DNA from: Candidatus Liptonbacteria bacterium
Lineage (GTDB): Bacteria; Patescibacteriota; Minisyncoccia; UBA6257; 2-01-FULL-56-20
NCBI GenBank assembly: GCA_023244935.1
Contig: JAHFLJ010000007.1
Span: forward strand, 1-40,217
DNA: 40,217 bases
Direction of reading: 5' to 3'
Position numbers and translations under genes: made by a program. Below, one piece after another: positions 20,769 through 21,280 of the stretch. The notes beneath the pieces were generated by a model that searched no databases, was not told the origin of the DNA, and saw nothing but the letters and a program-made list of their open reading frames with translations. Within the stretch, counting starts at the first letter, position 1. Each line of letters starts with the position of its first letter.

Positions 20769-21081
20769 TCCGGCGTAGCTCAGTGGTAGAGCAAATCCCT
20801 GTGAACGAGTACGCAGCCTCCTGAAGTAATTCAGGTTGAAAACGAGGTGAATTCGGGGAAGCCCAAAAGTCGTAAGACCGGGTAATCCCGAGCCAAGCCA
20901 AATAATTATTTGGAAGGTGTAGAGACTATCCCTTTATGGGAGTACTGATAACAAAATTGTTATTGGGAAGCGCCTCGTCCCGCACTCTTTAAAAAGAACG
21001 GGAATGATATAGTCCATCCCTATTAGAAATTTTAGGATAAATGTAAGGATAAGGTCGTAGGTTCGAATCCTACCGCCGGAG
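20769..21081 (+). tRNA. tRNA-Asn(GUU) interrupted by a group I intron
   Basis: Exon 1 20769-20802 tccggcgtagctcagtggtagagcaaatccctgt; exon 2 21044-21081 taaggataaggtcgtaggttcgaatcctaccgccggag. Spliced: 7-bp acceptor, D-arm, anticodon loop CTGTTAA, T-arm GTAGG-TTCGAAT-CCTAC, discriminator G. One 27-43 A-A mismatch. Confidence 0.85.
20803..21043 (+). other. Group I intron (241 nt, no ORF) within the tRNA-Asn anticodon
   Basis: Exon ends in U and intron ends in G; IGS gcag pairs with exon ctgt; P2 cctgaa-gtaa-ttcagg; conserved-core strings ggtaatcccgagccaagcc (Q/R-like), ggaaggtgtagagacta (S-like) and atgatatagtcc (P7 3'). Confidence 0.87.
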
Positions 21082-21091
21082 CATAAGTAAT

Positions 21092-21116
21092 AAAAGATCC
21101 CTTTACGGGATTTTTT
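21092..21116 (+). terminator. Terminator of the tRNA transcript
   Basis: aaaagatccc-ttta-cgggatttttt. Confidence 0.75.
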
Positions 21117-21133
21117 ATTACTTCATTTTTTGA

Positions 21134-21280
21134 CCGGTAGGATTCGAATAGGAGAGGGGTCGGGAGAACGACAGTTCTCCCGTGTCGGAATCCCTAAAAA
21201 CCGAGACCTGCCTGCCGGTAGGCAGGGGTGTTTAGAAAATTTGCCGAGCAAATTTTGTTCGACTCCCTACCGCCGGAGCA
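21134..21280. repeat. Hairpin cluster bracketed by partial tRNA-Asn 3' end copies
   Basis: cggtaggattcgaa (21135-21148) is the exact reverse complement of tRNA 21062-21075; cctaccgccggagca (21266-21280) is an exact direct copy of 21069-21083; hairpins at 21162-21181, 21207-21226 and 21236-21256 lie between. Confidence 0.7.

Follow-up and report, generated by a model that had tools for sequence, protein, structure and literature searches.

In the genome of this Candidatus Liptonbacteria bacterium, a single tRNA-Asn(GUU) gene was found; it is split between U35 and U36 (position 35/36 in standard tRNA numbering) by a group I intron devoid of an endonuclease gene, which would represent a homing element in decayed or minimal form. 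We give this reading a probability of about 95%. Positions refer to the window, i.e., the whole 40,217-nt stretch of DNA that was analyzed, and are collected in Table 1.

Table 1. Features of the interrupted tRNA-Asn gene and of its intron (percentages are paired columns among relatives, compared with shuffled columns).
Feature	Positions	Strand	Evidence and remarks
5′ exon, tRNA-Asn(GUU)	20769–20802	+	Called by ARAGORN in the spliced sequence and when introns are allowed
P1 exon strand CUGU	20799–20802	+	U.G at the 5′ splice site; pairs with GCAG in 78/78
Group I intron, 241 nt	20803–21043	+	RF00028, junction enumeration, covariation in relatives; ends in omega-G, no endonuclease ORF
Internal guide sequence GCAG (P1 intron strand)	20813–20816	+	Same alignment column in 78/78
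P2 hairpin CCUGAA-guaa-UUCAGG	20820–20835	+	96.8% vs 53% shuffled, 219 double changes
P3 5′ strand (partner 20971–20978)	20842–20849	+	77% vs 67% shuffled, n = 78
P4 (20852–20857/20887–20892), P5 (20861–20864/20880–20883) and P5 extension	20852–20892	+	P4 95% vs 65% shuffled; P5 scarcely above shuffled columns (78 introns)
P6 and P6a	20892–20918	+	P6a 84% vs 56% shuffled, 162 double changes
P7 5′ strand GACUAU (partner 21009–21014, AUAGUC)	20924–20929	+	Position taken from the alignment to RF00028
P7.1-like and P7.2-like hairpins, between P7 and P3′	20930–20961	+	88% and 71% vs 75% and 43% shuffled
P8	20979–21002	+	89% vs 66% shuffled
P9	21019–21036	+	84% vs 62% shuffled
3′ exon	21044–21081	+	ARAGORN with introns allowed and spliced; in three other genera, the 3′ exon of intact alleles is identical to that of interrupted ones
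Hairpin resembling a terminator, with T run, immediately downstream of the tRNA	21085–21123	+	Consensus scan, 17 pairs; predicted

With default settings, ARAGORN returned no tRNA in the window. When introns were allowed, a tRNA-Asn(gtt) with a 241-nt intron was obtained, and the joined exons were likewise called tRNA-Asn(gtt). The 5′ exon (TCCGGCG...CCCTGT) carries the 5′ strand of the acceptor, the D arm, the 5′ strand of the anticodon stem and C32 U33 G34 U35; the 3′ exon (TAAGGATA...CGCCGGAG) carries U36 A37 A38, the 3′ strand of the anticodon stem, the variable loop, the T arm and the 3′ strand of the acceptor, and ends in the discriminator G73 at 21081. The two halves, the discriminator G, the host tRNA and the extent of the intron are thus as a sequence-only reading of this DNA had described them, with a 7-bp acceptor stem and a 5-bp T stem free of mismatches. 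The anticodon stem comprises four pairs and an A27-A43 mismatch that this reading had not mentioned. The spliced cloverleaf, the GUU anticodon, U1-A72 and G73 identify the gene as a tRNA-Asn(GUU). A model of asnS gave below-cut-off matches only. Upstream of the gene, a promoter scan on the tRNA strand found nothing. Two pieces identical to the tRNA-Asn 3′ end lie within 200 bases downstream, at 21134–21148 (minus strand, inverted) and 21267–21279 (plus strand), and are possibly remnants of duplication or integration.

The intron gave the single Rfam RNA match of the window (RF00028, 54.4 bits, E = 3e-11), only 4 bits above the curated gathering cut-off of 50. The group I class that had been proposed for it is also carried by a P1 with U.G at the 5′ splice site, by the terminal omega-G at 21043 and by a P3–P9 core comprising the P4–P6 and P3–P7–P8 domains, P3 and P5 being the weaker helices. 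Following the mechanism established for group I introns, the precursor would fold so that CUGU of the 5′ exon pairs with the internal guide sequence GCAG; a guanosine bound in P7 would attack after the U.G pair and the exon thereby released after omega-G, and the exons would be joined into the loop CUGUUAA with the anticodon GUU. The sequence-only reading pointed out that the anticodon itself is interrupted, which is not unusual: the group I intron of tRNA-Leu(UAA) likewise sits within the anticodon, at 34/35. Nor is its remark meaningful that unspliced RNA would misread as GUG (His), because the precursor lacks a proper anticodon loop; failed splicing would leave the cell without tRNA-Asn rather than with a misreading tRNA.

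The splice junction was placed by enumerating all eight placements that keep a 7-nt loop. CUGU/GAAC...AAUG/UAA (slashes marking the splice sites) was the sole one combining an exon-terminal U with an intron-terminal G. ARAGORN prints the position as 34–35; since the D loop has no nucleotide 17, the standard number is 35/36. The placements yielding Thr(UGU), Thr(GGU) or His(GUG) each break one or both of these group I rules, and the junction initially read from the letters holds. Among them, a tRNA-Thr(UGU) with its intron at 33/34 (CU/GU.../UGUAA) calls for closer attention, as it is what ARAGORN proposes for many relatives, in which sliding the junction by 2 nt gives a second placement likewise ending in G. 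For the present gene it is very improbable. In the window such an intron would end in A, and the guide sequence GCAG pairs with CUGU; the acceptor with U1-A72 and G73, which is that of tRNA-Asn, was found here and in all collected Asn relatives, and the genome holds a separate tRNA-Thr(UGU) and no other tRNA-Asn. Moreover, in three genera of the order (g163, g29 and g82) the 38-nt 3′ exons are identical in intact and interrupted alleles, and the intron boundaries are fixed because the intact alleles of the same genus read CUGUUAA.

The fold of the tRNA-Asn intron was then compared with 78 dereplicated relatives of at most 300 nt, by scoring pairing against shuffled columns. These introns had been selected with the exon CUGU among the criteria but irrespective of a match to GCAG, and the pairing between guide sequence and exon that the sequence-only reading had drawn is kept in every one of them. 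P2, P4, P6a, P8 and P9 covary, with many two-sided changes, far above the shuffles. P7, expected to be the guanosine-binding site, is nearly invariant and hence gives no covariation signal; as P3 and P5 covary weakly over the whole set, these three helices rest on the family model. In the window copy, P3 consists of eight pairs, one of them G.U, and P9 contains two U.U mismatches; a P5a drawn by eye found no support among the relatives. A second subtype, comprising 14 relatives, has no hairpins between P7 and P3′. Such hairpins, as present in the subtype of the window, may set it apart from subgroup IC3, the tRNA-Leu type.

The source genome is a 712-kb assembly, a 31-contig draft with a completeness given as 100%. 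Elsewhere in it, 39 tRNA genes scored above the RF00005 cut-off, none of them for Asn, and a 30-mer of the 3′ half of the tRNA-Asn occurred once in the genome with up to three mismatches allowed, which answers the question raised by the sequence-only reading of whether another tRNA-Asn gene exists. A second copy could lie in an assembly gap or could itself be interrupted. Usage of Asn codons is normal (461 of 6750 in the ORFs of the window), and splicing would be needed for translation if the assembly is complete. The same RF00005 set contained one CAU tRNA only, and Ser(GCU) and Ser(GGA) were not found; further interrupted tRNAs may be hidden in this genome.

Of 245 genomes of the order, 145 had group I introns according to RF00028. 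With strict tRNA-Asn patterns, an intact gene was found in 110 of the 245 and an interrupted one in 51, about 86 genomes matching neither pattern. Both alleles occurred together in 2 genomes, compared with 22.9 expected under independence (Fisher p = 7e-13, a value that treats related genomes as more independent than they are). This near-exclusion is as predicted if the working gene is replaced by a spliced one. It bears on the view that the locus is a nonfunctional tRNA pseudogene whose insertion has decayed, a view for which the A27-A43 mismatch, the narrow Rfam margin and the two tRNA 3′-end fragments just downstream might speak. With every tRNA arm and core helix intact, interrupted genes taking the place of intact ones across the order, and Asn codons in ordinary use in a genome with no other tRNA-Asn found, a pseudogene has only a slight chance of being the right explanation.

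The interpretation of the intron as a decayed or minimal homing element stems from its longer relatives. At 241 nt, the window intron is too short for an endonuclease ORF. By comparison, a motif search (C..C...HH) showed that 32 of the 36 Asn introns longer than 480 nt encode an HNH-motif protein (including loci L048, L073, L096, L127, L130, L140 and L168), and one more holds a related ORF; in the two ORFs tested against the Pfam HNH model, one match was obtained, slightly under the cut-off. The HNH ORF lies at the same site in the P1 loop, starts 20–50 nt past the 5′ splice site and mostly reads through the guide sequence, its conserved peptide TQLP corresponding to ACGCAGCTTCC, which includes GCAG. 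Directly ahead of its ATG, many long introns show a TATAAT- or TATACT-like box, a pattern that would suit a leaderless internal promoter for this ORF. In genus g163, an empty site is seen in one genome, short introns (220 and 225 nt) in two, and a 547-nt intron with an endonuclease ORF in another.

Beyond the order, species genomes of GTDB were scanned with a pattern joining omega-G to the 3′ half of tRNA-Asn. At least 119 loci were recovered, nearly all with an intron-bearing tRNA-Asn, mostly in Patescibacteria and also in cyanobacteria (Microcoleus, Tychonema, Hormoscilla and Oscillatoriaceae), Omnitrophota, Planctomycetota (Gemmatales), Stahlbacteria and Bacillota. RF00028 matched at 15 of 18 loci tested, including those of Microcoleus, Hormoscilla, Oscillatoriaceae, Gemmatales, Stahlbacteria and five Omnitrophota; no such confirmation was obtained for the Bacillota locus, where the contig stops at the gene. 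Bin contamination is possible for single MAGs, while several Microcoleus and Tychonema genomes agree with one another. The draft state of the source assembly could suggest a chimaeric contig or another assembly artefact. The recurrence of the same junction in the 51 interrupted genomes of the order and in independent assemblies of other phyla, named cyanobacterial genomes among them, makes this the least probable of the explanations considered, and the interrupted tRNA-Asn gene is real.

A tree built from 77 introns needed 3 changes of host label, against about 25 for shuffled labels. The introns cluster by host tRNA and hence mostly remain at their own site; the cyanobacterial and Gemmatales Asn introns fall near Phe introns with weak support. 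About 30 tRNA-Phe(GAA) genes of the order also carry group I introns (e.g., L055, L070, L087 and L105), the guide sequences of which (UUUGGGG) are unlike the Asn ones and which mostly form separate clades. Among the relatives, ARAGORN assigned 29 genes to Phe, 20 to Thr and 14 to Asn. The sliding junction leads to Thr(UGU) labels for many genes and to His or Tyr labels for some; by acceptor sequence and junction slide, most of the Thr labels and some of the Tyr and His labels correspond to Asn. Surveys relying on these labels therefore miscount the host tRNAs.

When tRNA T arms were searched for in the source genome, another interrupted gene came to light, a tRNA-Thr(GGU) with an intron of about 230 nt at 36/37, between U36 and A37 (contig C12:42682–42985; L301:1470–1773; L296:383–686). 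RF00028 misses this intron even at E-values up to 1, and its relatives too. Homologues were found in 30 of the 245 genomes of the order and in 15 of 384 genomes of the phylum; all those examined occupy the same place in the same tRNA, often between tRNA-Thr(UGU) and tRNA-Trp. They share a P1 (GGUGG/CCGCC) with U.G at the splice site in 20 of 20 and a terminal G; P2 and P5 covary, and P4 and P7-like pairs are invariant. The P3 register tried and P8 found no support in the covariation test, hence we only propose that this intron may belong to group I.

Reviews of bacterial tRNA group I introns list Leu, fMet, Ile and Arg genes as hosts (PMC4033280; PMC8450103). The introns of cyanobacterial and plastid tRNA-Leu(UAA), cyanobacterial tRNA-fMet and proteobacterial tRNA-Ile(CAU) and tRNA-Arg(CCU) are, like the present one, small, located in the anticodon loop and mostly ORF-less (PMC4033280; PMC8450103); tRNA-Asn 35/36 differs from them in host and junction, and the subtype of the window perhaps also in its hairpins between P7 and P3′. 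In the same group of bacteria, the CPR, group I introns are found in 16S and 23S rRNA genes, where they are frequently mobile and carry homing endonucleases (Tsurumaki et al., 2024; PMC11270868). Their endonucleases are mainly LAGLIDADG, whereas HNH motifs occur in the tRNA-Asn relatives. In the 23S rRNA gene of the source genome (L044, contig C17:20000–28000), three group I-like matches were seen below the Rfam cut-off. The 22–49-nt "group I introns" claimed in cyanobacterial tRNAs (PMC5733544) are far too short for group I. To judge by its title as cited in PMC12641178, a 2025 preprint (Nakagawa et al.) concerns tRNA group I introns with a "novel insertion site" in Patescibacteria; this title points to the same phylum-level group, intron class and tRNA hosts, and the preprint may cover the 35/36 site of tRNA-Asn, the 36/37 site of tRNA-Thr(GGU) or yet another. 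The sequence-only reading had been less familiar with tRNA-Asn as a host. Indeed, no paper describing one was found in the literature searched, which covered neither preprints nor most subscription journals; yet tRNA-Asn proves to be a frequent host, in about one fifth of the order and in other phyla. From sequence comparison, the intron belongs to a known class, in a host and at a site for which no description was found.

Tentatively, and at odds that we place somewhat below even, tRNA-Asn(GUU) 35/36 would be a widespread undescribed site in Patescibacteria, cyanobacteria, Omnitrophota and Planctomycetota, maintained through a homing cycle based on HNH endonucleases, with a P1-loop ORF that overlaps the guide and may own its promoter; the true count would be masked by tRNA finders, which label such genes Thr, His or Tyr. 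At the level of the organism, the only tRNA-Asn found in a minimal genome would rely on RNA splicing within the anticodon; the interrupted gene accounts for standard tRNA finders giving tRNA-Asn as absent, or under a wrong isotype, in genomes of this type. Besides, the empty, endonuclease-free and endonuclease-bearing alleles of a single genus form a compact set for intron homing in uncultured bacteria.
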